Part shown: piece after piece, positions 30,489 through 57,183 of the stretch
Layout: each line of letters starts with the position of its first letter
How positions within the stretch are numbered: position 1 is the first letter of the stretch
Assembly: GCA_029202385.1 (NCBI GenBank)
Contig: CP119314.1
Location: 746,501-810,500 of the forward strand
Direction: 5' to 3'
From: Candidatus Sphingomonas phytovorans
GTDB lineage: Bacteria; Pseudomonadota; Alphaproteobacteria; Sphingomonadales; Sphingomonadaceae
Length of the DNA: 64,000 nucleotides
Notes under the pieces: generated by a model
Databases searched by the model: none
What the model was told of the DNA's origin: nothing
What the model saw: only the letters and a program-made list of their open reading frames with translations
Made by a program: the position numbers and the translations under genes

Positions 30489-32852
30489 TCATTGACGTGG
30501 TGAGGCGATATCCTGGAACGACCGGTTGCCGATCGGATAGTCCTGCCAGCCGACCAGATCGAAATGCCACCATTCCTGGGAATAGACGGTGAAACCGTTA
30601 CGCTCCATCGCGGTACGCAACACTTCGCGCAGCCATCTTTGCTCGTCGCTGCCGCCGACATAGTTGGAATAGGAACGGCTGGAGAATTCGTCATAGCGCC
30701 CCGTCGTCACGATCGGCGCACCCGTGGCGAGATCGACCATGGTGAGATCGACCGCAGCGCCGCGATTGTGACGGGACCCCTGGCTTGGATCGGCAACGAA
30801 GATCCGGTTGGAGGGCGGCGTCGCGTCCCAGAACATCTTGGTGACGTACCAGGGACGATAGGCGTCGTGGATCATCAGGCCAAAGCCCTGCGATGCCAGG
30901 GAACGATGAACCCGCCCGATCGCTTCAGCCGCCGGGCGCTGCATGAATGCGCCGGCGCGTTCATAGATCTTCTGACCCATGAAATTGTTGGTGGTGGCGT
31001 ATCGAATATCGAGGCGAATGCCGGGATCGATGGCGGTCAGCGCCACAAGATCCGGCATTTTGACCGGACTGGCCTCGGCTGGCGGGCTGGCGGCCCGTGC
31101 GGCGGTACGCAGCGCGTCGATGCCCGTATTCATGACCGAATGGACGGCGGCTTCCGCTTCGGCACCAAAGTCTCGCCTCGGGAACCGGATCGCGCCGAGC
31201 AACGCTGCCGTCACCTTGCCAGAGGCATCCCGTTCGAACCGCAAGGATTCCAGCGGATACAGCCCGAGACGTTCGGGAAGGGCGTAATGGTCGGCTTCCA
31301 GTCGCCGCAATGGCGACCAGCCCGTCCACTCGATCCGGGCATAGGGCCTGCCGTCGCGCTGATAGACGCGAAGGATATTATGGTCCCAGCCATATTCGCC
31401 GATCAGGCCGGCCAGTTCGGTGTCAGGCACTGAGGGGCGTTGCCAGTCCGTGCGCGTATAGCGCCTGCCTGCCAGTTCGACCGAATTCGCATCCGGGGCG
31501 AAGGAAAACGCGTCGCTGAAATATTGGGCATCATCCAGATAATAACGGTCGCCGTTCTGTCGAACTTCCGCGGCCACTTCCGGCCCGTCGAGCACGAGAC
31601 CGCCGTCGAAAACGCGAACGTTGACGCTGTCGTCGCCGTCGACGAATCGGCCCGATTTCCGCACGGCGTCGGCACCCGATACCCTCCGGGTCTGCAACCA
31701 TTGCGGTAGTGCCGCCCCATCCCGCGCGGCGAGCAGGCTGCGTAGCGCGAAGGAGCCGATACGGTCCGCTGTCGGTCCGGCATCGACGGTGCTGAAAACG
31801 ACCACGCCGATACCGGCATCGGGCATCATGCGCACATCGGCCACATGGCCATAGACGGCGCCCGAATGTCCCACGGTACGCTGGCCGTCGAGCATCCCCA
31901 GTATGAAGCCGAGTCCGAAACGGCGTGCGCCGGGCGGCACCTCAAATTGGGGCCGCCACATCTCCGCCAGGCTTGCGCTCCGCAGAAGCGCGCCATTGCC
32001 TCCGGGCAGCGCGCCGGCGTTGAGCATCGAGGTGGCGAACAGGCCAAGATCGTCGACATTGGTGTAGAGATTACCCGCAGCGGACGTCCCCAGATCGAAG
32101 GCAGGGGCCTGCCAACGGCCACCGTCGAATGACGCCATTTGCGCATAGGCGATGGGAGTCTTGAGCTCGGTGCGCGCGAAGCTGCTGGCATTCATGCCAA
32201 GCGGGGTGAGTACCAGCGTGCGGACGGCATTTTCGAACGGCATGCCGGCAATGCGTGCGACCACCTCACCCACGACAGCGAGACCGGCATTGGAGTATTT
32301 CGTTGTCGTGCCGGGCCTTGCTACCAAGGTCGTGTCGTTGAGACTGGCAACCGTATCCGCCTGCCCCTTTGGGGTGGCATCGAAATAATTCCCGCGGGGT
32401 GGTTCGCGGACCAGGCCGCTGCGGTGAGTCATCAACTGCCGCAGGGTGATCGCCGTCCCAAAGGGATTATGTGGCGAGAATTCGGGTAGATAGCGTGTGA
32501 CGGGTGCATCGAGATCGATCTTGCCCTGCTCGACCAGCCTCATCACCGCGACGTCGGTAAACAATTTGCTGACCGACCCAGCCCGATAGAGGGTGGCCGG
32601 GCTTGCCGGTCGGGTGCCTGCCGCGTCGGCGTTACCCCAGGCCGCGGACCATATTACGCCCGACCTGTCGACCAGTGCCACCGCGATCGAGGGGATCGCC
32701 TTGTCCTTGAGTTCAGCGCGCGCGGCGGATTCGATATTGCGCGCGGCAGTCGCAACGACGGGCGCGGGTGTCGCCGGGTGACTGGATTGGGCTGCGGCCG
32801 GACTGATGGCCGCAGCGACCGCCACAGATAGGATGAGCAGGGGCCGGATCAT
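30489..32852 (-). CDS. CubicO serine hydrolase fused to VanX-type D-Ala-D-Ala dipeptidase
   Basis: A 787-residue two-enzyme fusion with a signal peptide (MIRPLLILSVAVAAAISPAAAQ). The N-terminal part is a class C beta-lactamase/CubicO domain: S93-x-x-K96 in RAGSVSKLFTD, Y-S-N in TKYSNAGLAVV, and HSGAVYGH. The last 200 residues are a zinc D,D-dipeptidase of the VanX/DdpX family: LDIRYATTNNFMG, then metal ligands in GSRHNRGAAVDL (S-x-H-x-x-G-x-x-x-D), and catalytic Glu plus His in QEWWHFDL. Both halves handle D-amino-acid substrates in known relatives. The ATG at 32852 lies 4 bp after the upstream stop, so it is cotranscribed with the class A-like gene. A start at 32882 would overlap that gene. 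Confidence 0.9.
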   Translation of the reverse strand: MIRPLLILSVAVAAAISPAAAQSSHPATPAPVVATAARNIESAARAELKDKAIPSIAVALVDRSGVIWSAAWGNADAAGTRPASPATLYRAGSVSKLFTDVAVMRLVEQGKIDLDAPVTRYLPEFSPHNPFGTAITLRQLMTHRSGLVREPPRGNYFDATPKGQADTVASLNDTTLVARPGTTTKYSNAGLAVVGEVVARIAGMPFENAVRTLVLTPLGMNASSFARTELKTPIAYAQMASFDGGRWQAPAFDLGTSAAGNLYTNVDDLGLFATSMLNAGALPGGNGALLRSASLAEMWRPQFEVPPGARRFGLGFILGMLDGQRTVGHSGAVYGHVADVRMMPDAGIGVVVFSTVDAGPTADRIGSFALRSLLAARDGAALPQWLQTRRVSGADAVRKSGRFVDGDDSVNVRVFDGGLVLDGPEVAAEVRQNGDRYYLDDAQYFSDAFSFAPDANSVELAGRRYTRTDWQRPSVPDTELAGLIGEYGWDHNILRVYQRDGRPYARIEWTGWSPLRRLEADHYALPERLGLYPLESLRFERDASGKVTAALLGAIRFPRRDFGAEAEAAVHSVMNTGIDALRTAARAASPPAEASPVKMPDLVALTAIDPGIRLDIRYATTNNFMGQKIYERAGAFMQRPAAEAIGRVHRSLASQGFGLMIHDAYRPWYVTKMFWDATPPSNRIFVADPSQGSRHNRGAAVDLTMVDLATGAPIVTTGRYDEFSSRSYSNYVGGSDEQRWLREVLRTAMERNGFTVYSQEWWHFDLVGWQDYPIGNRSFQDIASPRQ

Positions 32853-32856: not shown

Positions 32857-33882
32857 TCAGCCGACCAGCAGGAAATAATCATAGGCCGCGCGGGCGATAT
32901 CGGCGATCACGCGTTCCTGCACCTCGGTACCCTTGGTGTCTCCCTTGACATAGACGGCGATGGCGAACTTGCTTCCATCGGGCAACGTGACGAGGCCAAC
33001 GTCGTTGGCGATGCTCATCAGGGTACCGGTCTTGTGCGCGACAACGGTGCCGACCGGCAGCAACCCCTTGAGGCGCTTGTCGCCGGTGTGGCAGCGCTCC
33101 ATGATTCCGAGGAGCGCCTTGGTGCTGGCAGCGCTGACCGCCTTGCCCGACTGGATCTTCAGCAACAGGTCAAGCATCGCTTCCGGCGTCGTGCTGTCTC
33201 GGGGATCGTCATTGAAGGACTTGTTCGGTTTCCCGCTGGCGTCCTGATCGCGCTTCGATGGATCGGCGGCAAAGGCTGCCTTGATCCGCTCCGCAAAGGT
33301 TCCGGGCCCGGGCGGGATATCAAAGGCGCGGTAGATGATATGGGCGGTATCGCCATCGATCTGCTGGCCGGTCACGCCGAGCTTCCGAAGCCAGGCGGTG
33401 ACGGCGGCCGGTCCTCCCGCCTGTGCGGTGAGAACGTCCGTCGCCGTGTTGTCGCTACGGGTCAGCATCAATTCAAGCAGGTTGTAGAGCGACAGCGAAA
33501 CGCCGGGATGCGGCGTCTGCTCGGCGATCCCGTCGGAGTCCACGACCATCGCCGGATCAACCGCGATCATCTGGTCGAGCTTCAACTCGCCCTTGTCAAT
33601 CCGGGAAAAGATGGTTCCGGCCACGGCGATCTTGAACGTGCTGGCGAGCGGAAATGTCGTGCCCGCATTCAATACTGTCCGGCTATTCCCGTCAACGCGC
33701 TGCACGGCGACGCCCACCGTGCCGTCGGTCTGCTTCGCCAGCCGCGCGAATTCGTTGGCTAATCGCGTTCTCGCATCCATTGCCCCCGGGTCCGGCGCAG
33801 CGGCTGCGCCATGCGCGAACAGAGGCGAACCCGCCAGAAGCGCCACGGCGCTTATCGCAGACAGAAGAGGCATTTTTTTCAT
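32857..33882 (-). CDS. Class A beta-lactamase-like protein without the omega-loop Glu
   Basis: A 341-residue exported serine hydrolase. I chose the ATG at 33882 (MKKMPLLSA) because AAGGG lies 5-6 nt upstream and a signal peptide starts there. Class A motifs are clear: S81-T-F-K84, S143-D-N145 and K284-T-G286, plus DPRDSTTPEAM. The omega-loop segment between about 176 and 228 is lengthened and lacks the E166-x-x-L-N signature that deacylates beta-lactams. It may therefore be a poor beta-lactamase, or rather a DD-peptidase-like or peptide-hydrolysing relative. First gene of a two-gene operon with the VanX fusion, divergent from the XRE-cupin regulator. Confidence 0.85.
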   Translation of the reverse strand: MKKMPLLSAISAVALLAGSPLFAHGAAAAPDPGAMDARTRLANEFARLAKQTDGTVGVAVQRVDGNSRTVLNAGTTFPLASTFKIAVAGTIFSRIDKGELKLDQMIAVDPAMVVDSDGIAEQTPHPGVSLSLYNLLELMLTRSDNTATDVLTAQAGGPAAVTAWLRKLGVTGQQIDGDTAHIIYRAFDIPPGPGTFAERIKAAFAADPSKRDQDASGKPNKSFNDDPRDSTTPEAMLDLLLKIQSGKAVSAASTKALLGIMERCHTGDKRLKGLLPVGTVVAHKTGTLMSIANDVGLVTLPDGSKFAIAVYVKGDTKGTEVQERVIADIARAAYDYFLLVG

Positions 33883-33967
33883 GGAGACCCTTTTCAATCT
33901 GATCGAGGGGAGGGGAGCCACGGACTCTCGCCTCTCATCTGAGGAGTTCATCGATTTTTTTCGGTTT

Positions 33968-34121: not shown

Positions 34122-34802
34122 ATGCGGCCTGCCAGTCTTCGCGAATCTCCGGCCAGTGACCGACAGGCGTTCGCGGAGGACAATCCTGGAGCGGTCCTGC
34201 GCGAGATACGCAGAGCCAATGGCTGGACACTTGCCGATGTCAGTCAGCGCACTGGTATGCCAGTCTCCACGCTTTCCAAGGCCGAAACCGGCAAAATGTC
34301 GCTCAGCTATGAAAAATTGCTGCGTATCAGCCGCGGTCTCGAGATCGATATAACCAGACTCTTTTCGACCGCGGCGCCGGCCCCCGTCAGTCGAAGCGCT
34401 GTTACGGGGCGTCGCAGCATTACGCCGTCAGGCGAGGGGCCTTCGATCCGCACCGCAACGTATAATTATGTTTATCCGTCGGCGGATCTGCTTCACAAGA
34501 CGCTGAATCCAATGATCATCGATATCCAGGTGCGATCAATCGAGGATTTTGGTGATCTGATGCGCCATCCGGGCGAGGAATATGCCCTGGTTCTTGAAGG
34601 GCAATGTGAATTCTATTGCGACCTGTATGCGCCGTCTCTTCTCAAGACTGGGGATTCCATTTATTTCGATGGGACGATGGGGCACGGATATGTGGCGGTC
34701 GGTGAGGGGCCTTGCCGTATTCTGTCCATATGCTCGGCGACCGATGCGGATTTGAAATCGGCCCTGACGCCGATCGATGGTCGGGGCGTTTCCAAGCTCT
34801 GA
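34122..34802 (+). CDS. XRE-cupin transcriptional regulator
   Basis: A 226-residue regulator. The N-terminal XRE/Cro helix-turn-helix spans about residues 24-80 (AVLREIRRANGWTLADVSQ, then TGMPVSTLSKAETGKMSL). The C-terminal cupin sensor spans about 125-215 (HPGEEYALVLEGQCEFY, then GDSIYFDGTMGHGYV). XRE-cupin proteins commonly govern amino-acid or small-acid catabolism. It lies between the bla-like operon (divergent) and the D-serine dehydratase-like gene (20 bp downstream, same strand), so it is the best candidate controller of the D-amino-acid island. Direct target sites are inferred. Confidence 0.9.
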   Translation: MRPASLRESPASDRQAFAEDNPGAVLREIRRANGWTLADVSQRTGMPVSTLSKAETGKMSLSYEKLLRISRGLEIDITRLFSTAAPAPVSRSAVTGRRSITPSGEGPSIRTATYNYVYPSADLLHKTLNPMIIDIQVRSIEDFGDLMRHPGEEYALVLEGQCEFYCDLYAPSLLKTGDSIYFDGTMGHGYVAVGEGPCRILSICSATDADLKSALTPIDGRGVSKL

Positions 34803-34822: not shown

Positions 34823-36160
34823 ATGAATCCTGTCGTGCCAATCATCGCCGATGGCACGGGGGTGATGATGGGCATATCGAAGGAAAACGCCGCCAAGGCG
34901 CCGCTCGACTGGTGCTTCAAGGCGTGGCCGGCCAATGTGCCTGCCTATATGCCGGACACGCTGGCTGATCTCGGCTGGTCCATCCTGAACGAGGATGTCA
35001 TGCTGCCCGTCGCGGTGCTGAGCGAGAGCGCCATGCGACACAATAGCGCCTGGATGCGGCGTTTCACCGAGCTGGCGGACGTCAAGCTCGCGCCGCATGG
35101 CAAGACGACCATGAGTCCCGAACTGTTCGACCTTCAGTTCGCGGATGGCGCATGGGGCATGACGGCGGCAACGGCGGCGCAGGTTCGTATCTATCGCGCG
35201 CATGGGATCAACCGCATCATCCTGGCCAATCAGCTCGTGGGGCGCCAGCCGACTGACTATGTGCTGGGCGAACTGCGCGGCGATCCGGATTTCGATTTCT
35301 ACTGCCTGGTGGATTCGGTGGCGGCAATCGAGCAGCTCGAGCGGCGGATGTCCGCCTATCCGCTGGCCCCCAAAGTCCAGGTGCTGCTTGAGCTGGGGCT
35401 TGATGGCGGGCGGGGCGGCGTCAGGGACGATGATGAAGCGATGGCGGTCGCCTTGCGCGCGTCGGTGTCTCACCATCTGTCATTGCGGGGCATTGAGGCG
35501 TTCGAGGGCATCCTTCAGGGTGGAGGTTCGGAGGGGGAGGCCAGGATGTGCGGCCTCCTGCAGCGCATGGTCGATATCGCCGAGCGCTGCAGAAGGAACG
35601 GGCTGTTCTCGGGGCGGCCGATATTGTCGGCAGGGGGCTCCTCTTTCTTCGATGTGGCGGCGGCTGTTCTGCATCAGGCAGGCGAGCGCGGGGCTTATGA
35701 GGTCATCCTGCGCAGCGGATGCTATCTGGTCCATGACAGCAGCTTCTATGCTGAACTCGTGGAGCGACTGATCGCGCGATCTCCCAGCGCGGCAAGCCTG
35801 GGGGAGGGTTTGAGGCCGGCGCTTGAGGTCTGGGCATATGTACAGTCCCGTCCTGAACCGACCCGTGCGATCATCGGTCTCGGCAAGCGGGACACCTCGG
35901 CCGATGTGCGCGATCCGACTCCGGTGCGTTGGGCCCGGCCGGGCGAAGGAAAGCCTCTCCTGCTTGATGCCGGGCACAGGACCGTGCGGCTCGACGACCA
36001 CCACGCCTATGTCGACGTTCCGGCAGATTCTCCTTTGCAGGTGGGAGATATGGTCGCCTTCGGTGTGTCACATCCCTGCACGACCTTCGATCGCTGGCCT
36101 GCCTTGTTTGTGGTCGACGATGCTTTGACCATCACTGGAGCCGTAAGGACATTTTTCTAA
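34823..36160 (+). CDS. D-serine dehydratase-like fold-III PLP enzyme
   Basis: A 445-residue enzyme of the alanine-racemase-fold D-amino-acid deaminase/aldolase group. PLP Lys K94 lies in VKLAPHGKTTMSP. The C-terminal metal site is H417-P-C419 in VSHPCTTFDRW, with DDHHAYVDV before it. A His-x-Cys pair is the zinc site of eukaryotic-type D-serine dehydratases, whereas D-threonine aldolases usually have His-x-Asp, so D-serine (or D-threonine, D-threo-hydroxyaspartate) deamination is favoured. It probably forms a transcription unit with the XRE-cupin gene. Cytoplasmic: no signal peptide. Start could be a few codons later (Met15 or Met16). Confidence 0.88.
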   Translation: MNPVVPIIADGTGVMMGISKENAAKAPLDWCFKAWPANVPAYMPDTLADLGWSILNEDVMLPVAVLSESAMRHNSAWMRRFTELADVKLAPHGKTTMSPELFDLQFADGAWGMTAATAAQVRIYRAHGINRIILANQLVGRQPTDYVLGELRGDPDFDFYCLVDSVAAIEQLERRMSAYPLAPKVQVLLELGLDGGRGGVRDDDEAMAVALRASVSHHLSLRGIEAFEGILQGGGSEGEARMCGLLQRMVDIAERCRRNGLFSGRPILSAGGSSFFDVAAAVLHQAGERGAYEVILRSGCYLVHDSSFYAELVERLIARSPSAASLGEGLRPALEVWAYVQSRPEPTRAIIGLGKRDTSADVRDPTPVRWARPGEGKPLLLDAGHRTVRLDDHHAYVDVPADSPLQVGDMVAFGVSHPCTTFDRWPALFVVDDALTITGAVRTFF

Positions 36161-36241: not shown

Positions 36242-36302
36242 TTGACAAATCCCCGAATGGGATGATTATATCTAAAATAGATAATAATTTCGATATACGA
36301 AA
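36242..36302 (+). promoter_or_regulatory. Promoter with two palindromes before CubicO-TM gene
   Basis: TTGACA (36242-36247) and GATTAT (36264-36269) are spaced by 16 bp. Two inverted repeats follow or overlap: TATCTA-AAA-TAGATA (36269-36283) and TTTCG-ATATA-CGAAA (36288-36302). On the minus strand this stretch also weakly fits the island motif (ATTATC-N4-TTAGATA). Confidence 0.45.
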
Positions 36303-36363
36303 AACTTTCACACGTGCTCGGCCCCACTGGCCTGCGCGTCGAGCCGGCAGGGATGGGGATGGC

Positions 36364-38343
36364 ATGAGGTCTTTACATTCGTTCAAGCTGATTGCCGCTG
36401 GCATACTTGCGATGCTCGCCGTGCCGGCCACGGCGCAGCAGGCCAGGCCGCAGGCGGCTTCGTCGCCCCGGCCGGTTGCGGATGCGCGGGCTGCGGTTCC
36501 TGGAGCGCAACTGACCAAGGCCGATGTGGATGCATGGCTGGACGGTTATATGCCCTATGCGCTCAAGCGAGGCGATGCTGCCGGCGCGGTCGTGGTCGTG
36601 GTCAAGGACGGCGCAATATTGACCCAGCGCGGTTTCGGTTATGCCGATATCGACGCGCGCAAGCCGATCGATCCGGAAACGACGCTCTTTCGGCAGGCGT
36701 CCGTGTCCAAGCTCTTCACCTGGACTGCGGTCATGCAGATGGTCGAGCAGGGGAAGATCGATCTCGACCGGGACGTGAACGCCTATCTCGATTTCAAGAT
36801 TCCGCTCCGTGATGGAAAACCGATCACGATGCGCAATCTGATGACACACACCTCTGGTTTCGATGAAGTCCAGCGCGGCATTTACAGTGACGATTCCAGA
36901 AATATTCCGCCGCTCGGCGCCTTTTTGAAACAGTCGCTGCCGCGCCGGATCTTTGCGCCGGGTACCACGCCGGCTTACTCCAATTATGCGACGGCCCTGG
37001 CCGGCTATATCGTGGAGCGTGTCTCGGGCGTGCCTTATGACGACTATATCGAACGGCATATCTTCGCCCCGGCCGGCATGAAGTGGTCGACCTTCCGCCA
37101 GCCTCTGCCACCGCGACTCCAGGCGCTGATGGCGAAAGGATATACCCTCGGGTCAGGCAAGCCGAACAAGTTCGAAATGAACTATCTTGTCCCGGCGGCC
37201 GGCCTGACATCCTCGGGCGCCGACATGGGGCGTTTCATGATTGCCCATCTCGATAATGGCGGGGGTCTGCTCAAGCCCGCGACTGCGCTGCAGATGCATA
37301 CGAGCATGCTGACCGTCATACCGCCGCTCAACCGCATGGCGCTGGGTTTCTACGAACAGAACGTCAACGGCCGCGAAGTACTGTCTCACGCTGGCGATAC
37401 CGTGGTCTTCCACAGCCAGCTCTGGCTTTTTCCGAATGAAAAAGTCGGCATCTACATGTCGATGAACGCTGCCGGCACGCAGGGCGTGTCGGGGGTCATT
37501 CGCAGTCAACTGCTCGACTCATTCGCCGATCGTTATTTCCCGGCCGAACAGCATGATGCGAAGGTCGATGCAGCGAGCGCCCGGGAGCATGCGCGCCTGA
37601 TGGCCGGCACTTATGTCAAATCCCGGCGACTGGAATCGAGTTTCCTGAAGGTCATGGAGCTTGCCGGCGGACAGGTGAAGGTCGGGGTCGACGGCAAGGG
37701 CGCGCTTCGTCCGCAGGCTTTCCCTGGCCTGGGTGGGCAGGCCCGCAAATGGGTCGAGATCGCGCCGTTCGTATGGCGAGATCAGGATAGCAAGATGCGT
37801 CTCGCCGCCAAGGTGGAGAACGGCAAGGTCACGCGTTTCAGCCTGGACGCGACTCCTTTCATGCTGTTCGAACCCGTGGCCTGGTATCTGTCCAGTGCCT
37901 GGCTGACTCCTGCCCTATTGTTCAGTCTGGGGGTGCTGTTGCTCACGGCCCTCTCCTGGCCGGTCTCCGCGCTTGTCCGTCGCCACTATGGGGCCAAGCT
38001 GGCGCTCACGAGAACCGAACTGAAAAGCTATCGTCTGACACGCGGTTTCGCTGCTCTCGCGGTTGCGGTCATGCTGGCGTGGCCTGTGTTCATCACCATC
38101 CTGCTGTCCGATTTCTCGTTCCTGGGCGGGCAGCTCGATTGGGCATTGATCCTGCTCCAGCTTCTTACGCCGATCGCCTTTTTTGGCCTGGCTTTCCTGA
38201 CAGCCTGGAATCTCTGGCTGGTCTGGAAGGGCAAGCGCGGACGGTTCTCGAAGGTCTGGAGCGTGGTTCTGCTGCTCTCGTCAATCATCCTCCTGTGGGT
38301 TGCCGTCGGGTTCCACCTCATCGGTTTCGGTACCAGTTTCTGA
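36364..38343 (+). CDS. CubicO-type serine hydrolase with C-terminal membrane domain
   Basis: A 659-residue protein: signal peptide (MRSLHSFKLIAAGILAMLAVPATAQQ), an extracytoplasmic class C beta-lactamase/CubicO domain, a linker domain (about 400-520) and four C-terminal membrane segments (starting WYLSSAWLTPALLFSLG, GFAALAVAVMLAWPVF, LLTPIAFFGLAFLTAW, VVLLLSSIILLWVAV). Motifs: SVSK (QASVSKLFTW), YSN (AYSNYATAL) and HAGDT as third element. The ATG at 36364 is chosen because the signal peptide begins there; the frame extends 34 codons upstream. It is a close paralogue of the gene at 49600. Likely a membrane-anchored periplasmic D-peptidase or esterase; true substrate unknown. Confidence 0.87.
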   Translation: MRSLHSFKLIAAGILAMLAVPATAQQARPQAASSPRPVADARAAVPGAQLTKADVDAWLDGYMPYALKRGDAAGAVVVVVKDGAILTQRGFGYADIDARKPIDPETTLFRQASVSKLFTWTAVMQMVEQGKIDLDRDVNAYLDFKIPLRDGKPITMRNLMTHTSGFDEVQRGIYSDDSRNIPPLGAFLKQSLPRRIFAPGTTPAYSNYATALAGYIVERVSGVPYDDYIERHIFAPAGMKWSTFRQPLPPRLQALMAKGYTLGSGKPNKFEMNYLVPAAGLTSSGADMGRFMIAHLDNGGGLLKPATALQMHTSMLTVIPPLNRMALGFYEQNVNGREVLSHAGDTVVFHSQLWLFPNEKVGIYMSMNAAGTQGVSGVIRSQLLDSFADRYFPAEQHDAKVDAASAREHARLMAGTYVKSRRLESSFLKVMELAGGQVKVGVDGKGALRPQAFPGLGGQARKWVEIAPFVWRDQDSKMRLAAKVENGKVTRFSLDATPFMLFEPVAWYLSSAWLTPALLFSLGVLLLTALSWPVSALVRRHYGAKLALTRTELKSYRLTRGFAALAVAVMLAWPVFITILLSDFSFLGGQLDWALILLQLLTPIAFFGLAFLTAWNLWLVWKGKRGRFSKVWSVVLLLSSIILLWVAVGFHLIGFGTSF

Positions 38344-38810
38344 TCGTCGGAAGAGCTGGAGCCCGATGCGCAGTTCGGGCGCCGCTCTTCTTCGTGACGA
38401 TGGCGAAAGCCTCAGCGCGGCAAGGCGGGCAGGGTTCGGTGAGTTTTGCACCGCTGCATGAGGATCGTTGGATGAGAAAATTTCGATTCTATTTGCAATT
38501 ATCCTAATTGGAAAATACGATCCTGATCGGGATAGGGGTGCTGGAGCGGGGAGGGGCAATGCGATTATTTCCACGAACCTTCCGCCGTCACATGATTGAC
38601 CGTCCAGCGGCGGTTGAATCCACCACTTATTCGACAGGCAGGGGCGCGCCTCGCCACAGCGTCGGGCAGGGTCCTGTTTTTCTCGCACGTGTCGGACGAT
38701 CCTCCGATCACGATTCAGCAATCGACTGGCCCGATTCCATCGGGCGGCCCGGGCTCGGCCATGTGCCGCGGGCGGACCGTCGATCTTCTCTTTTGATTTG
38801 CAAGGTATGA
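38344..38810. other. Intergenic gap with island motif
   Basis: This 467-bp gap has no supported gene. A short A/T-rich stretch at about 38480-38520 contains the island motif, listed separately. Small open frames on both strands lack family likeness and good ribosome sites. Confidence 0.5.
38497..38515 (+). promoter_or_regulatory. Island motif AATTATC-N4-TTGGAAAA, copy 1
   Basis: AATTATC, four bases (CTAA), then TTGGAAAA. All 15 fixed positions agree with the copy at 57338-57356 upstream of the receptor at the other end of the island. It is about 300 bp before the DUF1611 gene, inside an A/T-rich patch. Probably a binding site for a common regulator. Confidence 0.5.
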
Positions 38811-43709: not shown

Positions 43710-43751
43710 CCGATGCGCGGAGCATTCGAACCCCGACAGGGAGAGGGAATA

Positions 43752-46893: not shown

Positions 46894-46949
46894 TGTGAAA
46901 GACGAGACCGGTTTCGGCACGGCCGGCCGGTCGACAGGAAGGATTGATC

Positions 46950-47960: not shown

Positions 47961-48000
47961 TCGCGTCGAGCGCACCGAGACTGAAAACGGAGAGGGATAT

Positions 48001-49296: not shown

Positions 49297-49323
49297 GGGC
49301 CGGGCGCCCCACAACCCGGCAGC

Positions 49324-49483: not shown

Positions 49484-49536
49484 TTGACAGTTTTCCGATT
49501 TGGACCATTATGTTCGAAATCGGAAATTTTTTCCAA
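49484..49536 (+). promoter_or_regulatory. Promoter with overlapping inverted repeat
   Basis: TTGACA (49484-49489) and CATTAT (49506-49511) are spaced by 16 bp. A perfect 10-bp inverted repeat, TTTCCGATTT (49492-49501) and AAATCGGAAA (49517-49526), brackets the -10 region and would let a dimer block transcription. TTTTCCAA at 49529-49536 is half of the island motif in reverse. The start codon of the next gene lies about 90 bp downstream. The rest of this 303-bp gap shows only the hairpin at its left end. Confidence 0.55.
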
Positions 49537-49599
49537 ATTAGTATTTGCTCACGGCCCGACGATTCTGGCGAGGGGCAAAAATGGGAGGGGACGTAGGAC

Positions 49600-51585
49600 A
49601 TGCGCTCGATCAAGTTGTTGGCGCCATTGGCATTGATGCTGATGGGTGGTGGCGCGATAGCACAGCAATCAGCCCGGATCGTCTCATCCCCGGTGGCATC
49701 CGCGACTCCCGAGAAGCCTACCGTCCCGTTGCCTGCGTCGGCTGCCGTGCCCGGCGAGCGAGCAATGACCAAGCAGGATGTGGATACATGGCTTGACGGC
49801 TTCATGCCCTTCTCTCTCAAAAAGGCGGATGTTGCGGGGGCCGTGGTCGTCGTCGTCAAGGACGGACAGGTCCTGACGCAGCGCGGATTCGGTTATGCCG
49901 ACATCGCGAAGCATGTGCCGGTCAATCCCGATACCACGCTGTTCCGCCCGGGTTCGGTCTCCAAGCTCTTCACCTGGACGGCGGTTATGCAGCAGGTCGA
50001 GGCCGGGAAGATCGACCTCGATGCCGATGTGAACAACTATATCGATTTCAAGATCCCGCTGAAGGACGGCAAGCCCGTCACGATGCGCCAGATCATGACT
50101 CACACTGCCGGTTTCGAAGAGCATGGCAAGGAAACCATCTTCGACGATCCCCAATATCTCACCTCGCTGGGCGACTATGTGAAGCGCTCGATTCCCAAGC
50201 GCATTTACGCGGGCGGATCGACCCCTTCCTATTCCAACTACGCCACGGCGCTGGCGGCCTATGTCGTCGAACGGGTCACGAAGATGTCCTTCGACGACTA
50301 TATCGAGCAGCGCATTTTCAAGCCTCTCGGTATGACTCGGTCGAGCTTCCGCCAGCCGCTGCAGAAGACGCTCATGCCGCTGATGGCGACTGGCTATAGC
50401 CAGGCGTCGGCCGAGCCGTCGAAATATGAATTCATCGGCCCGGCCCCGGCGGGCAGCCTGGCGTCGCCGGGCGCCGATATGGCCAAGTTCATGATCGCCC
50501 ATCTCAATCAGGGCCAGGGCCTGCTGAAGCCCGAGACGGCACGCGTGATGCACGATACGCCGCTCACGCTGCTTCCGCCGCTCAACCGGATGGAACTGGG
50601 TTTCTTCGAGACCAACATCAATGGCCGGCAGGTGATCGGCCATCTCGGCGACACGCAGCTTTTCCACACCGCGCTCCACCTTTTCATGAACGAAAAGGTT
50701 GGTCTCTACATGTCGTTCAACAGCACGGGTGAGCAGGCCGGGGTGGGGCCGTTGCGTCGTGCCCTGTTCGAGGATTTTGCCGATCGCTATTTCACCGATC
50801 TCAGCAAGCTTGACGGACGGGTCGATGACAAAACCGCGGCCGAGCATGCGAAAATGCTGGTTGGGCAATGGCTCAACAGCCGCCGGGCGGAATCGAACTT
50901 CTACGCAATCGGCAATCTGCTGCGTCAGGCATCGGTCAGCGTCGATGCCAAGGGCAAGCTCGTCGTTTCAGCCGGGCGCACCGCCAATGGCAAGCTGATG
51001 AAATGGGTCGAGATCGCGCCCTTCGTCTGGCGGAACATCGACGGGCATGAGCGGCTTGCGGCCAAGGTGGTCGACGGCAAGATCGTGCGCTGGAGCATCG
51101 ATGGCATATCGCCGTTCATGGTCTTCGACCGCGCACCGGCCTCGCAATCCTCGACCTGGATTCTCCCCTTGCTCTACGCGAGCGTCGGAATCCTGTTGCT
51201 TACCTTCCTCCACTGGCCAGTCTCCGCATTGATCCGCCGTAGCTACAAGGCGCCACTCGCGCTCCAGGGCCGCTCGCTCCTCGCCTATCGCAGCGTCCGG
51301 CTTGGTGCCGGGTTGACGGTCGCGTTGCTCACGGCATGGTTCGTCACCGTGTCGACGCTGAAGGCGACGCCCGCGTTCGACGCAAGGCTGTGGTCTCTCC
51401 AGATCGGCGGATTGATCGTCTTCGTTGGTGGCGTCCTGCTCGCGGGATGGAACCTCTGGATCGCCACGCGGGAGGCGCGCGGCTGGTTCGGAAAGCTCTG
51501 GGCGGTACTCATCCTGCTTGCGACGCTCATGGTGCTCTACACCGCCTGGACCTTCGGCCTGCTCTCCATGACGGTGAATTATTGA
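49600..51585 (+). CDS. CubicO-type serine hydrolase with C-terminal membrane domain, paralogue
   Basis: A 661-residue paralogue of the gene at 36364, with the same layout: signal peptide (MRSIKLLAPLALMLMGGGAIAQQ), class C/CubicO domain with S-V-S-K (PGSVSKLFTW), Y-S-N (SYSNYATAL) and HLGDT, a linker domain, then four membrane segments (ILPLLYASVGILLLTF, AGLTVALLTAWFVTV, IGGLIVFVGGVLLAGW, WAVLILLATLMVLY). Shared wording such as VVVVVKDG and LTQRGFGYADI shows a fairly recent duplication. Its stop overlaps the next start by one base (TGATG), linking it to the second epimerase and the peptide transporter. Confidence 0.88.
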   Translation: MRSIKLLAPLALMLMGGGAIAQQSARIVSSPVASATPEKPTVPLPASAAVPGERAMTKQDVDTWLDGFMPFSLKKADVAGAVVVVVKDGQVLTQRGFGYADIAKHVPVNPDTTLFRPGSVSKLFTWTAVMQQVEAGKIDLDADVNNYIDFKIPLKDGKPVTMRQIMTHTAGFEEHGKETIFDDPQYLTSLGDYVKRSIPKRIYAGGSTPSYSNYATALAAYVVERVTKMSFDDYIEQRIFKPLGMTRSSFRQPLQKTLMPLMATGYSQASAEPSKYEFIGPAPAGSLASPGADMAKFMIAHLNQGQGLLKPETARVMHDTPLTLLPPLNRMELGFFETNINGRQVIGHLGDTQLFHTALHLFMNEKVGLYMSFNSTGEQAGVGPLRRALFEDFADRYFTDLSKLDGRVDDKTAAEHAKMLVGQWLNSRRAESNFYAIGNLLRQASVSVDAKGKLVVSAGRTANGKLMKWVEIAPFVWRNIDGHERLAAKVVDGKIVRWSIDGISPFMVFDRAPASQSSTWILPLLYASVGILLLTFLHWPVSALIRRSYKAPLALQGRSLLAYRSVRLGAGLTVALLTAWFVTVSTLKATPAFDARLWSLQIGGLIVFVGGVLLAGWNLWIATREARGWFGKLWAVLILLATLMVLYTAWTFGLLSMTVNY

Positions 51586-52589
51586 TGTCGAAGCTGAAAC
51601 TTGGGGTGGCGGTCGAAACGCTACGGCTCGCCGCCCCGTTTCGTATCTCGGGCCATGTGTTTGATGGCCGGGATGCGATTATCGTCAGGCTTGACGACGG
51701 TGAGCATGTGGGACGCGGAGAAGCCTCGGGCGTCTATTATGTGGGCGATGATCTGGGCCATATGCTGGCCGCGCTGGACAATGCCCGGGACGCGATCGAA
51801 GCTGGTCCGTCCCGTGAAGAACTGCGCTCCATCCTGCCGGCGGGCGGTGCGCGCAACGCGGTTGACGCGGCGCTGTGGGAGCTTGAATCCAAACGGCTCG
51901 GCAAGCCGGTATGGGCGCTGGCCGGGCTCGAACGGCCCCGGCCATTGCTCACCACCTTTACGATTGGCGCCGACGAGCCGGCGAGGATGGTCGAGACGGC
52001 AAGGGCCTATGGCGATGCCCGCTCGATCAAGATCAAGCTGACCGGCGAACTCGATCTCGATATCGCGCGCGTAAAGGCGATCCGGGCGGCACGACCCGAT
52101 GTATGGATCGGCGTCGACGCCAATCGGGGTTTCTCCATCGGCGATCTCGATGCGCTGGTCGATGCGATGCTCGCGGCCGGGGTCTCGCTGATCGAGCAGC
52201 CGCTCGCGCGCGGACGCGAAGCTGATCTCGACGGCTATGGCTCGCCCATTCCCCTCGCGGCGGATGAGAGCGCGCTTACGTTGGAGGATGTCGCTGGCCT
52301 GAAAGGCAGGTTCGACGTCTTCAACATCAAGCTCGACAAGTGTGGCGGCCTGACCGAGGGGCTGATGATCGCCGCCGCGGCGCGCGACGCCGGGATGGGC
52401 GTGATGGTGGGTTGCATGGTGTGCAGCAGCCTGGGCATCGCGCCGGGCTTTGTGCTGGGCCAGTTCTGCGATCTCAGCGATCTCGACGGACCGATCTTCC
52501 TGAAAAAGGATCGGTCACCCGCCACGGTCTATCGCGACGGCACGGTTTGGTGCGACGACGCCATCTGGGGTGTCGGGGCGATCGCGTGA
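51585..52589 (+). CDS. Dipeptide epimerase (DgcA-like), copy 2
   Basis: A 334-residue enolase-superfamily paralogue of the gene at 46950. Catalytic pair K149-I-K151, ligands in VDANRGF, IEQPLA and AADESAL, and the opposing Lys in NIKLDKCGG are kept. The loop after it differs: MVGCMVCSSLGIAPG here, MVGNMVGSSLAMAPA in copy 1. Since this loop borders the substrate pocket in the family, the two may prefer different N-acyl or dipeptide partners. Start overlaps the serine hydrolase stop by one base; stop overlaps the transporter start (GTGA). Confidence 0.87.
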   Translation: MSKLKLGVAVETLRLAAPFRISGHVFDGRDAIIVRLDDGEHVGRGEASGVYYVGDDLGHMLAALDNARDAIEAGPSREELRSILPAGGARNAVDAALWELESKRLGKPVWALAGLERPRPLLTTFTIGADEPARMVETARAYGDARSIKIKLTGELDLDIARVKAIRAARPDVWIGVDANRGFSIGDLDALVDAMLAAGVSLIEQPLARGREADLDGYGSPIPLAADESALTLEDVAGLKGRFDVFNIKLDKCGGLTEGLMIAAAARDAGMGVMVGCMVCSSLGIAPGFVLGQFCDLSDLDGPIFLKKDRSPATVYRDGTVWCDDAIWGVGAIA

Positions 52590-53875
52590 GGATCACAGAG
52601 GAACGTTCGTCTACCTGGTTCGGTCAGCCGCGCGGGCTGACCGTGCTGTTCCTGACGAACATGTGGGAGCAGTTCTCCTACTACGGCATGCGCACCCTGC
52701 TGGTCTATTACATGACCAAGCAATTGCTGATGAGCCAGCAACAATCCTCGCTGGTGTACGGCGCCTATACGGCGTGCGCCTATTTCACGCCGATCGTGGG
52801 CGGGGTCATTGCCGATCGTCTGCTCGGCAAGCGCCGTGCGGTCGTGCTGGGCGCGAGCATCATGGCCGCGGGGCATTTCATGATGGCGTTCGAATCGTTC
52901 TTCTATGTCGCGCTTCTCACCATCGCGCTCGGAAACGGGCTGTTTCTTCCCAGCCTGCCGAGCCAGATCAACGACCTGTACAAGGCGGGCGATCCCAGGC
53001 GCGGCTGGGCGTATAATGTTTATTATGTCGGCATCAATATCGGCGGCTTCATCGCGCCGCTGATATGCGGCACGCTCGGGGAATTCTACGGCTGGCACTA
53101 TGGCTTCGGTGCGGCCGGCATCGGCATGTTCGCCGGGCTGCTCATTTATCTCTGGGGGCAGCGTTACCTGCCGCCTGAGCCGCCCCGGGTGCCGACCGTC
53201 GATATGCCGGCGGCACGATGGGCGGACCACAAGCGCACCTTCATGGTGCTGGCCGGGATCGCGCTGTCCGTGACGGTATTTCGTGGCGCTTATGAACAGG
53301 TCGGCAACACGGTGGCTCTCTGGGCGGACAGCGGCCTGGATCGAAGCGCTGGCGGCTTTGTCATTCCGATGACCTGGTTCCAGTCGCTGAATCCACTGCT
53401 CGTCATGCTGGTGACGCCGCCGCTTCTCAACTATTGGCGGCGCCGTGCCGATGCGGGCCAGGATAGTTCCCCGGCCAGGCGCATGGCGCTTGGCGCTGTG
53501 ATCGTCGCCTGCGCCTATTTGCTGCTCGCGATGGTCGAATGGAGCGGGGGTGGCGCAAAGGCCACATGGCTGTGGTTCGTGATGTTCTTCGCGATCTTCA
53601 CGCTGGGTGAGCTCTTCGTCCTGCCGACGGGCCTCGGGCTGTTCGCCAGGCTTGCGCCGCCACGGCTCGGCGCGACGACGGTCGCGGCATGGTATCTGGC
53701 GATCTTCACTGGCAGCCTGTCGGCCGGAATGGTTGGCATGTTGTGGAGCCGGACAAGCCACGGGGCCTTTTTCGCGTTGCTTGGCCTGATCGCGCTCGCG
53801 TCCGCGCTGCTCTTGCGCTCGCTCGACGGGCAGGTGCGCAAGGTCGATCCAACCTGGAAGCCCGACATCGATTGA
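52586..53875 (+). CDS. POT/PTR2-family peptide transporter
   Basis: A proton-coupled di/tripeptide importer of 429 residues with about 12 membrane segments. POT signatures: EQFSYYGMRTLLVYYM in TM1 (the E-x-x-E/F-Y-Y-G-x-R region) and FTPIVGGVIADRLLGKRRAV after TM2. The second POT signature region reads YNVYYVGINIGGFIAPL. The start is GTG at 52586, overlapping the epimerase stop by 4 bp; the open frame extends further upstream but overlaps the epimerase. Placement right after a dipeptide epimerase suggests imported dipeptides such as L-Ala-D-Glu are epimerised inside the cell. Confidence 0.9.
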   Translation: MRITEERSSTWFGQPRGLTVLFLTNMWEQFSYYGMRTLLVYYMTKQLLMSQQQSSLVYGAYTACAYFTPIVGGVIADRLLGKRRAVVLGASIMAAGHFMMAFESFFYVALLTIALGNGLFLPSLPSQINDLYKAGDPRRGWAYNVYYVGINIGGFIAPLICGTLGEFYGWHYGFGAAGIGMFAGLLIYLWGQRYLPPEPPRVPTVDMPAARWADHKRTFMVLAGIALSVTVFRGAYEQVGNTVALWADSGLDRSAGGFVIPMTWFQSLNPLLVMLVTPPLLNYWRRRADAGQDSSPARRMALGAVIVACAYLLLAMVEWSGGGAKATWLWFVMFFAIFTLGELFVLPTGLGLFARLAPPRLGATTVAAWYLAIFTGSLSAGMVGMLWSRTSHGAFFALLGLIALASALLLRSLDGQVRKVDPTWKPDID

Positions 53876-54507: not shown

Positions 54508-57183
54508 TCAGAACTTCACTTTGACGCCAGCCGAGAAATAGCGACCGATCACGTCGTAGTTCGCGTTGGTGTACGGAACATAGGGCGGGGCGACATCGAA
54601 CATGTTGTTGACGTTGCCGAACAGGGTGAAGTCTCCCACCTTGAAGCGCAGGCCGAGGTCGACATAGGTCCGGCTGCTGATCTGGTTGTTCAGGATCGCC
54701 TGAGTCTTGCTGTAGATACCACCACCGACATAGCGTGCGCGCAGATCGGCGCCGAAACCTGCATTCTCATAGGTCACGGTGCCGGTCAGCCGCCATTTCG
54801 GTGTCGAGAAGGCAGTGTCCCCGCCAACGACGCCTGCGACATCCGTCGAGCTGTTGGCATTGGCAATCATCAGATCGAAGATATGATTGGCGAGCACGCG
54901 GAACCCGAGTTTGCCATTGCCCAGCGACGTCCGGTACGATGCTTCAATATCGAGCCCACGGGTGCTGTACGAAACGAGGTTCCGATACGTAGCCGCAATT
55001 GACTCCATTGCACCGTTCGCGCCGCGGCTGATCACGCCGCCGCAGGTGGGATCATTGGGGTTCGTACGGAAACACTGTGCGAGCGTGTCCGTCACGGTGA
55101 CCACCGTGATCACATTGTCGATCTTGATGTCGTAATAATCGACCGAGACGCTGAATCCCCGCACGTAATGCGGCGAATAGGAACCGCCGACCGTCAGGGT
55201 GTGCGAAATCTCGGGCGTCAGGTTGGGATTGCCGCCGGTATAGATTCTCACGCCGGCCTGGGTTGCTTGCCGGAAAGGATCGTAGAGGTCGGCGATATTG
55301 GTCGAGCGAGTGGAGAAATATTCGGGGACGCTCGGGGAGCGAATGTCACGCGAATAGACGGAACGCAGCAGCAGGTCGTTGACGAGGCGCAGCGTGCCGC
55401 CGGTTTTCCAGGACCAGATGCCACCGCTGGTGCTGTAGTCCGAATAGCGTGCCGCGCCGTTGATCTCGAAATGCACTGCATCCTTGAGATCGATCAGCGG
55501 CAGGTTGACCTCGCCGAATACTTCCTTGACGCTGAAGCGGCCGTTGGTCGGAGCTGAGTTGAGCGTCGCAAAGGCATTCGCCTTGGACATCGGGTCGATA
55601 TAGTTGGTTACGAGAGCTTCCCACCGGAAATCCGTACCAACGGCGATGTCCACCGGCCCGGCCCAGGTCGAGAAGGGATGGCCGTGCAGGCTGGCGCCCG
55701 CCGCGTCGAGCTTGATCGTGCTGATGGACCGGGTTCCGCCAAAGGCGTAGGCGACGCCGGCCGCGGAGATATTGCCGTTGCCGAGCAGGTTGATCGGCGT
55801 GCAATTCGGATCGGTAACGGTGACGGCATTGACGCGGCATACCGGCGTGCCGTTCACCAGCACTGCGTCGATGGCGCGATCGAAATTCGCCTTGATCCGC
55901 TGGTTGTAGAGCGACTGGTCGCTCCTGGCCTCGCCGTGATCGTAATAGGCATCATAACCCCAGCCGTCGCCGAAGCTTCCCTTGAGGCCGACCGAGCCTT
56001 CGAGGTTGCGACGGGAGAACTTGAAGTTCAGCATGCGATTGGGACCGACATCGTCAAGGATCCGGCCCAGCAGGAAGGGCCCGGTGACGCCGGCGGCGCT
56101 GAGCTGACTGCGCGCAGCCGGCGTCAGGAACGCATTGTCCGGCATGATCGCCACGATCGGCGTTTCCGGGAAGAAGCTGTAGTTGCCCCACATGCGGCTA
56201 TAGCTGCCATCGGCCCAGAGCTTCAGGGAATCCGTGATATCGAAGGTGGCGCGCGCGTAGACATTGTTGCGCTGATAAGGCGAACTTACGGCGACATAGT
56301 CGTAGATGTTCTGGCCGTTGCCGCCGACGGTGAATTGACCCGCCGTCTGGCTGCCGAGCGGTAGCGGACCGACGCTGCCGTCGGGGTTGAAGATCAGGTT
56401 GTACGGTGTGCCATTGGTGCGCAGGAGCGATCCGCCGCGATTGAGGACGGTGTAGTTGACGTCGTTGGCGAGGATCAGCTTGCCATCGGGGCGCTGGAAG
56501 ACGGACGATTCGAGATTGGGACGGTCCTTGCGGCCGAAGGCACCCTTTTCCTGAAGATAGTCGGCGGAAATCATGAAGTGGCCGCGATCGCCCGCGAAGC
56601 TCGTTCCCCAGGCCATATCGACGCCGTAGCGGCCCATGTCGCCGCGCGAGGAGACGCCCGTCTGTGCACCCATGCGCAAGCCCTTGAGTTCGTCGTCAAG
56701 GATGATGTTGACGACGCCGGCGACCGCGCCCGAACCCCAGGCGGCGGAGGCGCCGCCGGTGACGACGTCAACGCGCTTGATGAGGTTCTGCGGCACGATG
56801 TTGAGATCGTTGCTGCCCGTGAAGCGGTGTCCGTTGAGCAGGGTCAGCGTCCGCACGGCACCCAGCCCACGCAGATCGGCGGTCGAGACGCCGCTGGTCG
56901 TGTTGCCCACCGTCGTCGCCGGAGTCGACGTGCCGCGGAACTGCGGCATGTCGTTCAGGACCTGGGCAATGCTCGGGCGATTGCCCTGGCGCAGCTCGGC
57001 TTCGCCGACGACCGTGGTCGGCGTCGGCGCGTCGAAACCGGAACGCTGGATTCGCGATCCAGTGACCACGATCTCATCCGCCGCCTCGGCGTCGGTATCG
57101 GCCGTTTGCGCCGAAGCCGGCGCCAGGCTCAAGGCCATCGAGAGCGCGGTGCTGGTGTACCAGAACAGGCGAATGGACTTCAT
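54508..57183 (-). CDS. TonB-dependent receptor of the D-amino-acid island
   Basis: Outer-membrane receptor of 891 residues. The ATG at 57183 (MKSIRLFWYTSTALSM) is backed by AGGGGG about 7 nt upstream and a signal peptide ending PASAQ. TonB-box-like DEIVVTGSRIQRSGF, plug with SIAQVLNDMPQFRG and LLNGHRFTG, then GSGAVAGVVNIILDDEL, and a barrel ending SAGVKVKF. It is preceded by an island-motif copy (57338-57356), tying it to the D-amino-acid genes. Its ligand would then be a peptide or N-acyl amino-acid compound too large for porins. Receptor class certain, ligand inferred. Confidence 0.91.
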   Translation of the reverse strand: MKSIRLFWYTSTALSMALSLAPASAQTADTDAEAADEIVVTGSRIQRSGFDAPTPTTVVGEAELRQGNRPSIAQVLNDMPQFRGTSTPATTVGNTTSGVSTADLRGLGAVRTLTLLNGHRFTGSNDLNIVPQNLIKRVDVVTGGASAAWGSGAVAGVVNIILDDELKGLRMGAQTGVSSRGDMGRYGVDMAWGTSFAGDRGHFMISADYLQEKGAFGRKDRPNLESSVFQRPDGKLILANDVNYTVLNRGGSLLRTNGTPYNLIFNPDGSVGPLPLGSQTAGQFTVGGNGQNIYDYVAVSSPYQRNNVYARATFDITDSLKLWADGSYSRMWGNYSFFPETPIVAIMPDNAFLTPAARSQLSAAGVTGPFLLGRILDDVGPNRMLNFKFSRRNLEGSVGLKGSFGDGWGYDAYYDHGEARSDQSLYNQRIKANFDRAIDAVLVNGTPVCRVNAVTVTDPNCTPINLLGNGNISAAGVAYAFGGTRSISTIKLDAAGASLHGHPFSTWAGPVDIAVGTDFRWEALVTNYIDPMSKANAFATLNSAPTNGRFSVKEVFGEVNLPLIDLKDAVHFEINGAARYSDYSTSGGIWSWKTGGTLRLVNDLLLRSVYSRDIRSPSVPEYFSTRSTNIADLYDPFRQATQAGVRIYTGGNPNLTPEISHTLTVGGSYSPHYVRGFSVSVDYYDIKIDNVITVVTVTDTLAQCFRTNPNDPTCGGVISRGANGAMESIAATYRNLVSYSTRGLDIEASYRTSLGNGKLGFRVLANHIFDLMIANANSSTDVAGVVGGDTAFSTPKWRLTGTVTYENAGFGADLRARYVGGGIYSKTQAILNNQISSRTYVDLGLRFKVGDFTLFGNVNNMFDVAPPYVPYTNANYDVIGRYFSAGVKVKF

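Follow-up and report, generated by a model that had tools for sequence, protein, structure and literature searches.

A conserved gene island of Candidatus Sphingomonas phytovorans as a probable D-peptide utilization locus

Organic nitrogen includes a large pool of D-amino acids that is consumed slowly and, to our knowledge, little is known of how bacteria open the peptides that contain them. A 64-kb stretch of the Candidatus Sphingomonas phytovorans genome (hereafter the window) holds a dense cluster of hydrolases, racemases, transporters and a TonB-dependent receptor, here called the island. Do these genes act together, and on which substrates? An earlier note on this DNA had read the island as a catabolic locus for D-peptides and D-amino acids, with the DgcN-DgcA D-glutamate route inside it. 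We find that the cluster is real and conserved, that it shares a promoter motif, and that it is rather likely to be a composite D-peptide utilization locus, i.e. a modular regulon under a shared switch. The earlier interpretation thus stands for the receptor, the exported peptidases and the permeases, which are conserved, but not for the D-glutamate route. The enzyme families are known, one known route has probably been re-tooled, and we found no name for the organisation as a whole.

Gene content and conservation of the island

Positions 30489-57240 of the window hold every family that the earlier note had placed there and two genes that it left out, at 34122-34802 (an XRE-cupin regulator) and 42615-43670 (an alpha/beta hydrolase). 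In the list below, export was called by a simple scan of N-terminal hydrophobicity, with no trained predictor, and promoter-operator sites were scored with a position weight matrix (PWM) trained on other genomes.

30489..32882, minus strand: CubM15, an exported CubicO (S12) domain fused to a VanX/DdpX-type M15 D,D-dipeptidase domain (PF00144, 222.9 bits; PF01427, 108.4 bits)
32857..33951, minus strand: BlaA, an exported serine hydrolase of class A fold that lacks the omega-loop motif E166/N170 (PF13354, 165.8 bits)
34122..34802, plus strand: XRE-cupin transcription regulator that may control the island (HTH_3 and Cupin_2)
34823..36160, plus strand: DSD, a D-serine dehydratase/D-threonine aldolase-like PLP enzyme, accessory (PF14031; best PDB match 3gwq, 'D-serine deaminase', 364 bits)
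36242..36269, plus strand: promoter-operator before Cub1, TTGACAAATCCCCGAATGGGATGATTAT (24.1 bits)
36262..38343, plus strand: Cub1, an exported CubicO hydrolase whose C-terminal part holds membrane segments and whose start is probably at about 36364 (PF00144, 206 bits; SxxK and YSN)
38492..38522, both strands: doubtful promoter-operator-like sites before DgcN (13.3 bits on the minus strand at 38495, 10.1 bits on the plus strand at 38492)
38811..39860, plus strand: DgcN-like (DUF1611) N-acyltransferase of the island clade (NF041892, 446.7 bits)
39857..41026, plus strand: YkvI-like permease, assigned by its LeuT/APC fold
41023..42618, plus strand: Cub2, an exported CubicO hydrolase with DUF3471 (PF00144 and PF11954)
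42615..43670, plus strand: alpha/beta hydrolase (Abh), membrane-anchored, accessory (PF12697)
43713..45368, plus strand: exported D-aminoacylase-superfamily amidohydrolase with an altered metal site (PF07969; closest PDB entry 3gip, N-acyl-D-Glu deacylase)
45469..46893, plus strand: Cub3, an exported CubicO hydrolase (PF00144, 123 bits; SASK and YSSGTSN motifs)
46944..47960, plus strand: DgcA1, an enolase-superfamily protein like N-acyl-amino-acid racemases/dipeptide epimerases, with G28/F31/Y57 (NF042940, 380.4 bits)
48001..49296, plus strand: AmHyd, an exported amidohydrolase akin to arginine carboxypeptidase Cc2672 and LlADH (NF051886, 364 bits, cut-off 500)
49484..49511, plus strand: promoter-operator before the Cub4-DgcA2-POT unit, TTGACAGTTTTCCGATTTGGACCATTAT (40.7 bits, the top site of the window)
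49600..51585, plus strand: Cub4, an exported CubicO hydrolase with C-terminal membrane segments (PF00144, 190 bits)
51585..52589, plus strand: DgcA2, a second DgcA-like racemase (NF042940, 341.7 bits)
52586..53875, plus strand: POT-family di/tripeptide:H+ symporter (TIGR00924, 282.3 bits)
54508..57240, minus strand: TonB-dependent receptor (PF00593 and PF07715; the earlier note ended at 57183)
57336..57363, minus strand: promoter-operator before the TonB receptor (27.9 bits)

The genes at 36262-53875 are all on the plus strand, and with the starts chosen there are 1-4 bp overlaps at five junctions, namely: DgcN/YkvI, YkvI/Cub2, Cub2/Abh, Cub4/DgcA2 and DgcA2/POT. Five of the genome's 32 PF00144 matches fall within a 19-kb stretch of the island, where 0.11 are expected (Poisson 1.3e-7; about 4e-5 across all such windows). 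A base composition scan gives a guanine-plus-cytosine fraction of 0.61-0.67 and reveals no sharply foreign segment.

Relatives of the island were taken as the best 80 of 574 confirmed matches to its own DgcN, on genome contigs with flanks of up to 10 kb. A further 20 regions surround other DgcN copies (two of the strain itself, 18 from five other genomes), and 20 regions at arbitrary positions in four of those six genomes served as controls. A gene was counted as present in a locus if it gave a blastp match of >70 bits and >300 bp. The 80 relatives and 17 of the 20 DgcN regions make up 97 island-type loci, excluding the strain's own paralogues (L031 and L032) and a canonical locus (L033). With duplicates removed (L046 = L070, L050 = L122) 95 are unique, L040 and L041 overlapping; the doubles are still inside the counts for the comparison with canonical loci, the PWM scores and the association of site and regulator.

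The genes found near DgcN are, for relatives and DgcN regions respectively, CubicO (78/80 and 16/20), DgcA (70/80 and 13/20), the XRE-cupin regulator (67/80 and 9/20), the YkvI-like permease (64/80 and 7/20), an M19 dipeptidase (52/80 and 10/20) and a deacylase-like gene (40/80 and 12/20), each of them in 0/20 controls. The TonB receptor is found in 59/80, 16/20 and 4/20 controls, and the alpha/beta hydrolase in 16/80 relatives. Conserved co-occurrence with synteny in sphingomonads had been proposed beforehand as a check, and the combination does recur in the relatives and in none of the 20 controls.

In Sphingomonas sp. QA11, whose DgcN is 99% identical, the entire island is present with its order kept, and the same carboxylase unit comes after the receptor, as it does in the window. 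Sphingopyxis witflariensis has the genes from regulator through POT in island order, DSD excepted, and no carboxylase unit was found there within 14.8 kb beyond POT. In Sphingomonas sp. ERG5, DSD, Cub1 and Cub2 were not found at the corresponding place. The unlabelled conserved genes of related loci include M19 dipeptidases and a second type of TonB receptor.

The association was also read in reverse, over 249 genomes of the family. Among 46 close homologues of the YkvI-like permease, 40 lie at most 3 kb from dgcN; the remaining six comprise one at 8 kb, one at 20 kb, one at 1.7 Mb and three on contigs free of dgcN. This test used 115 of 124 DgcN rows, nine fragments or weak rows having been dropped, and scored at most eight permease candidates per genome. 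DgcN matches occur in 67 of the 249 genomes and DgcA matches in 155. The core is present across Sphingomonadales and in at least three gammaproteobacterial families.

One alternative is that these loci serve general peptide scavenging, the D-specific enzymes being incidental. They do contain S9, S15, M19, POT and alpha/beta hydrolase genes, and in other organisms these families also act on L-peptides or other substrates. However, DgcA is one of the partners found most regularly with DgcN, and the permease gene accompanies dgcN in 40 of 46 cases, which makes general scavenging very unlikely.

The borders of the island are less certain than its core. Relative to dgcN, a beta-glucosidase gene lies at about 10 kb and the carboxylase unit at about 18 kb; because these flanking genes sit at or beyond the 10-kb flanks counted, the borders cannot be argued from the co-occurrence counts. 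The adjoining unit, at 57701-63352 of the window, consists of acyl-CoA carboxylase, carboxyltransferase, acyl-CoA dehydrogenase and LysR genes.

A shared promoter-operator and its candidate regulator

A promoter-operator with the consensus TTGACA-ATTTTCCGATCAGGA-YNATTAT stands upstream of island-type genes. Two upstream regions of the plasmid pKN1 (see below) and the Cub4 region of the window have TTGACA, TTTTCY-N5-GGA and a -10-like AT-rich stretch in common. This pattern has 50 matches in the 97 island-type loci (49 in the 95 unique ones, in 34 loci), 0 in 20 canonical-DgcN loci (0.40 Mb) and 0 in the 20 controls (0.40 Mb).

A 28-bp PWM was built from 29 distinct sites of other genomes, L051 and L052 being left out as near copies. 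On both strands of the window, its top three sites precede Cub4, the TonB receptor and Cub1 (40.7, 27.9 and 24.1 bits), so that the motif stands before the hydrolase units Cub1 and Cub4-DgcA2-POT as well as the receptor. Weaker sites lie before DgcN (13.3 and 10.1 bits) and between the regulator and DSD (11.1 bits). Six shuffled windows reach at most 9.1 bits, and one of the 20 canonical loci passes 8 bits (9.0).

A site of at least 8 bits is present in 79 of the 95 loci, the training loci being among these. At 15 bits or more there are 125 sites in the 95 loci: 112 close to where a labelled gene begins (with Cub1, M19, the TonB receptor and Cub4 as the commonest), 12 before nothing labelled, and one inside a gene. 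The site goes together with the XRE-cupin gene, since 67 loci have both, nine the site only, seven the regulator only and 12 neither (Fisher P 1.3e-5).

Across the 5.45-Mb genome, an independent consensus taken from other genomes' sites has two matches with at most three mismatches, one before Cub4 and one before a locus at 4.859 Mb. The latter (contig 1, 4859019-4863633) encodes an M19 dipeptidase, a YkvI-like permease and an S9 peptidase behind a promoter-operator of 29.6 bits, with no DgcN near. No M19 dipeptidase was found in the window, and the 4.859-Mb locus may supply this missing enzyme. A looser pattern, written to fit the sites at Cub1, Cub4 and 4.859 Mb, retrieves only those three genome-wide at up to two mismatches, and neither pattern has a genome match when read backward. 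The locus is probably co-regulated, and co-induction of its units is predicted from the shared promoter-operator.

Four other DgcA-like genes lie elsewhere in the genome (at 164 kb, 991 kb, 3.13 Mb and 4.49 Mb), two of them <8 kb from a DgcN gene of their own and the other two at most about 2 kb from a CubicO gene. The operator was not found at three of these places; the 4.49-Mb place was covered by the genome-wide patterns only, which have no match there. Three of the strain's other DgcN/DgcA loci (L031, L032 and L153) have no PWM site above 6.7 bits and therefore seem to be under other control.

A first motif, TGTCC-N6-GGACA, has 10 exact copies in the 97 loci and none in the 20 controls, but was set aside with five copies of at most one mismatch in the controls. 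It overlaps the better promoter-operator motif.

Enzymes, transporters and predicted substrates

The DgcN-DgcA route was reportedly established as a D-glutamate catabolic route by Yu et al. 2023 (ISME J 17:537). According to PMC10845958, DgcN-DgcA leads from D-Glu to L-Glu. The island resembles this route in holding a DUF1611 acyltransferase and an enolase-superfamily racemase in one locus with catalytic residues kept: the pattern KxK, D, E, D, K is intact in DgcA1 (LKLKL, VDAN, EQP, ADES and IKLDK) and in nearly all homologues. It differs in three respects. Firstly, DgcN scores 446.7 bits against a cut-off of 480 for NF041892, its sole NCBIfam match, while DgcA1 (380.4) and DgcA2 (341.7) stay below the cut-off of 400 for NF042940, the best match of both; none of the six NF042940 matches in the genome reaches 400. 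Secondly, DgcN lies outside the canonical clade, which holds 29 of the 30 top-scoring genome hits, the thirtieth being the strain's own copy at 157 kb. DgcN position 270 is R in 21/21 canonical proteins and PDB 7xrj, and neither R nor K in 98 rows of the island clade. Thirdly, the basic residues at DgcA positions 28, 31 and 57 are kept in 20/20 canonical proteins, 4gfi and the E. coli Ala-Glu epimerase 1jpd, whereas of 85 island-type rows (84 distinct) 83 have lost all three, DgcA1 having G, F and Y. The surroundings differ as well, as the 20 canonical loci contain the XRE-cupin gene, the YkvI-like permease and POT in no case and M19 once, next to CubicO in nine, a deacylase-like gene in 15 and the TonB receptor in 11.

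These data also bear on the possibility that the island scavenges peptidoglycan stem peptides and feeds cell-wall D-Glu (and D-Ala) through the known DgcN-DgcA route. Consistent with this are the NCBIfam matches themselves, the VanX/DdpX-type M15 domain, with its motifs intact and fused to an S12 domain, and the occurrence of D-Ala-D-Ala carboxypeptidases among CubicO relatives. Against it stand the scores under the D-Glu family cut-offs, the DgcN clade and the loss of the basic residues, and we consider stem-peptide scavenging unlikely. From the same scores, clade and residues it follows that the D-glutamate reading of the earlier note is unsupported; the substrates of DgcN and the DgcAs are predicted, from their sequences, to be uncharged D-residues.

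CubM15 has intact SxxK, YSN and M15 motifs (SRHNRGAAVD and EWWH), the VanX/DdpX signature being SxHxxGxAxD plus ExxH. It remains under the equivalog cut-offs (138.5 vs 176 bits for NF007557, 86.4 vs 320 bits for NF033115). The CubicO-M15 fusion is common: 3753 homologues were found, and among the matches listed 120/120 have both domains. A CubicO-M15-CubicO fusion is also present (homologue P0101). A BlaA-CubM15 fusion, suggested by 'PF13354' in some long homologues, is not claimed; P0094 and P0112 seem instead to carry M15 and two CubicO domains.

BlaA scores above the cut-off of NF033103, the class A model of NCBIfam (223.9 vs 200 bits), and keeps SxxK, SDN and KTG in 11/11 aligned rows (10 distinct); the CubicO proteins hit class C beta-lactamase models with scores under the respective cut-offs. 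It could thus be proposed that class A-fold and class C-fold hydrolases act with D-amino-acid enzymes in the breakdown of, or defence against, beta-lactams. However, the ExxLN motif (E166/N170) is missing from the window protein and from the omega-loop stretch of all 11 rows (10 distinct), for which reason we do not call BlaA a beta-lactamase. Moreover, BlaA occurs in only 7/80 related loci and the conserved partners are dipeptidases, a permease, racemases and a TonB receptor, making a role in beta-lactam metabolism extremely unlikely. Class A beta-lactamase-fold proteins without the E166/N170 omega loop are found here beside D-peptide genes.

Two amidohydrolases complete the set. The first had been taken for an N-acyl-D-amino-acid deacylase, a function that we do not regard as settled: in 32/32 rows of >50% identity, the window protein included, the HxH metal motif is replaced by an MDQS-type motif, and the protein scores 209.6 bits against a cut-off of 340 (NF006560). 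The later His, His and Asp positions are kept in the window protein. The second, AmHyd, has as its nearest PDB entries LlADH-type amide hydrolases (9kov and 9l6p) and arginine carboxypeptidase Cc2672 (3mtw).

As for transport, POT is well above the TIGR00924 cut-off (282.3 vs 130.2 bits). The YkvI-like permease, whose name is kept from the earlier note, has no Pfam or NCBIfam hit, and no PDB chain matched its profile by sequence; its structure matches lie near amino-acid transporters, in the APC/LeuT fold.

The predicted compartments fit the pathway proposed below. The five CubicO-domain proteins, BlaA, the deacylase homologue and AmHyd have export-like N-termini and the alpha/beta hydrolase is membrane-anchored, while DgcN, both DgcAs, DSD and the regulator are without a clear export signal.

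We infer the following substrates and reactions, as well as the target and direction of regulation. The TonB receptor would admit oligopeptides containing D-residues, which the envelope enzymes (the five CubicO-domain proteins, one with M15, the class A-fold hydrolase and the two amidohydrolases) would cut to small peptides and D-amino acids. POT would import di- and tripeptides into the cytosol, and the YkvI-type permease free, probably uncharged, D-amino acids. There, the DgcN-clade enzyme would N-acylate the D-amino acid, the two DgcA-clade racemases would invert the N-acyl-D to the N-acyl-L form, and a cytosolic deacylase encoded outside the island would release the L-amino acid; DSD may process D-Ser/D-Thr-like residues directly. 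Until bound by an inducer, the XRE-cupin protein probably represses the units, using an operator placed within the spacer of their sigma-70 type promoters, and the 4.859-Mb locus would belong to the same regulon.

Several observations weigh against this interpretation. The related loci are not independent, and the 80 relatives were picked as the top matches to the island's own DgcN. POT (16/80 relatives and 8/20 DgcN regions), AmHyd (20/80 and 2/20), BlaA (7/80 and 3/20) and DSD (2/80 and 1/20) have low shares near DgcN, with 0/20 in controls; DSD and BlaA are accessories and not core. No TonB receptor, BlaA, CubM15 or DSD was found with the S. witflariensis cluster over 10 kb before DgcN and 14.8 kb beyond POT. 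In the PWM scan, three of the 20 control loci pass 8 bits, the best reaching 16.5, which only three window sites exceed, and thus only the Cub4, TonB receptor and Cub1 sites are safe. The best structural matches of the permease include YcsG and Nramp-type proteins. The strain's own DgcN at 157 kb passes the cut-off of 480 (494 bits) yet lies outside the canonical clade, i.e. the cut-offs split the clades uncleanly. The DgcA and DgcN residue positions were read from alignments, and the DgcA loops with residues 28, 31 and 57 presumably contact the substrate side chain. The parallel losses of R38 and R223 in DgcN were dropped as substrate evidence, PDB 7xrj being without both. In addition, the earlier note had seen a full chain to the L-amino acid. 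No cytosolic deacylase for the N-acyl-L product was seen among the island genes, to which the search was confined, and the chain is therefore incomplete within the island. Finally, PMC12363236 describes a pathway that racemizes acidic D-amino acids as well as the corresponding amides, with dgcN as its key gene; given this range, part of what we call uncharged may be D-Gln/D-Asn.

Modules, related systems and wider occurrence

In its composition the island looks like several clusters fused into one; elsewhere these occur singly, each accompanied by a DgcN gene of its own. Three such modules are CubM15-DSD-BlaA-XREcup-DgcN-deacylase (L037), XREcup-Cub1-DgcA1-amidohydrolase-DgcN-YkvI (L039) and XREcup-Cub4-DgcA2-POT-DgcN-YkvI-Cub2 (L129 and L049). 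L129 belongs to Sphingomonas sp. ERG5, where its contig differs from that of L052. In one genome (G201) DgcN is found at seven places, of which one is canonical. A minimal core is found as an eight-gene block on pKN1, a 648-kb plasmid of Sphingobium yanoikuyae (L195), in the order XRE / serine hydrolase - dipeptide epimerase - TonB receptor - DUF1611 - hypothetical protein - serine hydrolase - dipeptidase. Some kilobases from this core lie genes for an IS5 transposase and for conjugal transfer.

Could the locus instead be dedicated to one D-residue natural product, e.g. a lipopeptide or cyclic peptide, as mlr is to microcystin? The combination of CubicO-type hydrolase and POT in sphingomonads is shared with mlr-type clusters, and Sphingosinicella microcystinivorans clusters POT, CubicO, M19 and deacylase-like genes near a PF07364 gene. 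With several distinct modules in a genome, each could be devoted to a single compound. However, PF07364 (the MlrC family) has no match in this genome, QA11, ERG5 or S. witflariensis, and the mlr cluster is not known to us to hold DgcN, DgcA or a TonB receptor. The occurrence of the core across Sphingomonadales and at least three gammaproteobacterial families fits a common substrate class better than a single compound; dedication to one natural product appears quite improbable. Microcystin catabolism itself was rejected, PF07364 having 0 matches in this genome, 0 in 14 control genomes and 4 in S. microcystinivorans. In a locus of the latter (L188), a POT gene (43% identical) lies about 1.3 kb from a PF07364 gene, after which come CubicO, M19 and deacylase-like genes; this is possibly the mlr region.

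The locus can further be compared with polysaccharide utilization loci, which comprise a TonB receptor, exported hydrolases, cytosolic enzymes and a regulator and are modular, with several per genome. The island has the same kinds of parts in modular loci, but differs in its predicted D-residue peptide substrates, its XRE-cupin regulator and its sigma-70 type promoter. In gammaproteobacterium NOR5-3, according to PMC3400609, a TonB transporter adjoins a D-aminoacylase gene and N-acyl-D-amino acids are its proposed substrate. Uptake of N-acyl-D-amino-acid compounds through a TonB transporter is thus predicted from genome context, as here; that case comprises a receptor and one neighbour gene, whereas the island adds racemases, permeases, peptidases and a common promoter motif. 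A literature search, with most subscription papers outside its reach, found no description of such a locus.

We see an even chance that Sphingomonadales and several families of Gammaproteobacteria share a widespread class of modular D-peptide loci that moves horizontally, with DgcN-DgcA re-tooled from D-glutamate to uncharged D-amino acids, a dedicated YkvI-like permease family and a signature promoter-operator; 'N-acylate, racemise, deacylate' would then be a general route for D-residues and not one peculiar to D-Glu. If true, the gene system and its promoter signature would allow D-peptide users to be recognised in genomes and metagenomes. A function would be assigned to a permease family without a Pfam match and to a DUF1611 subclade that is publicly annotated as 'DUF1611 domain-containing protein', and the substrate range of DgcN-DgcA would become directly testable.

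Among the related loci, a single frame of 1110 residues joins an M19 dipeptidase and a TonB-dependent receptor (L125:6619-9948); the two are encoded in separate frames in L095, L102 and L106.

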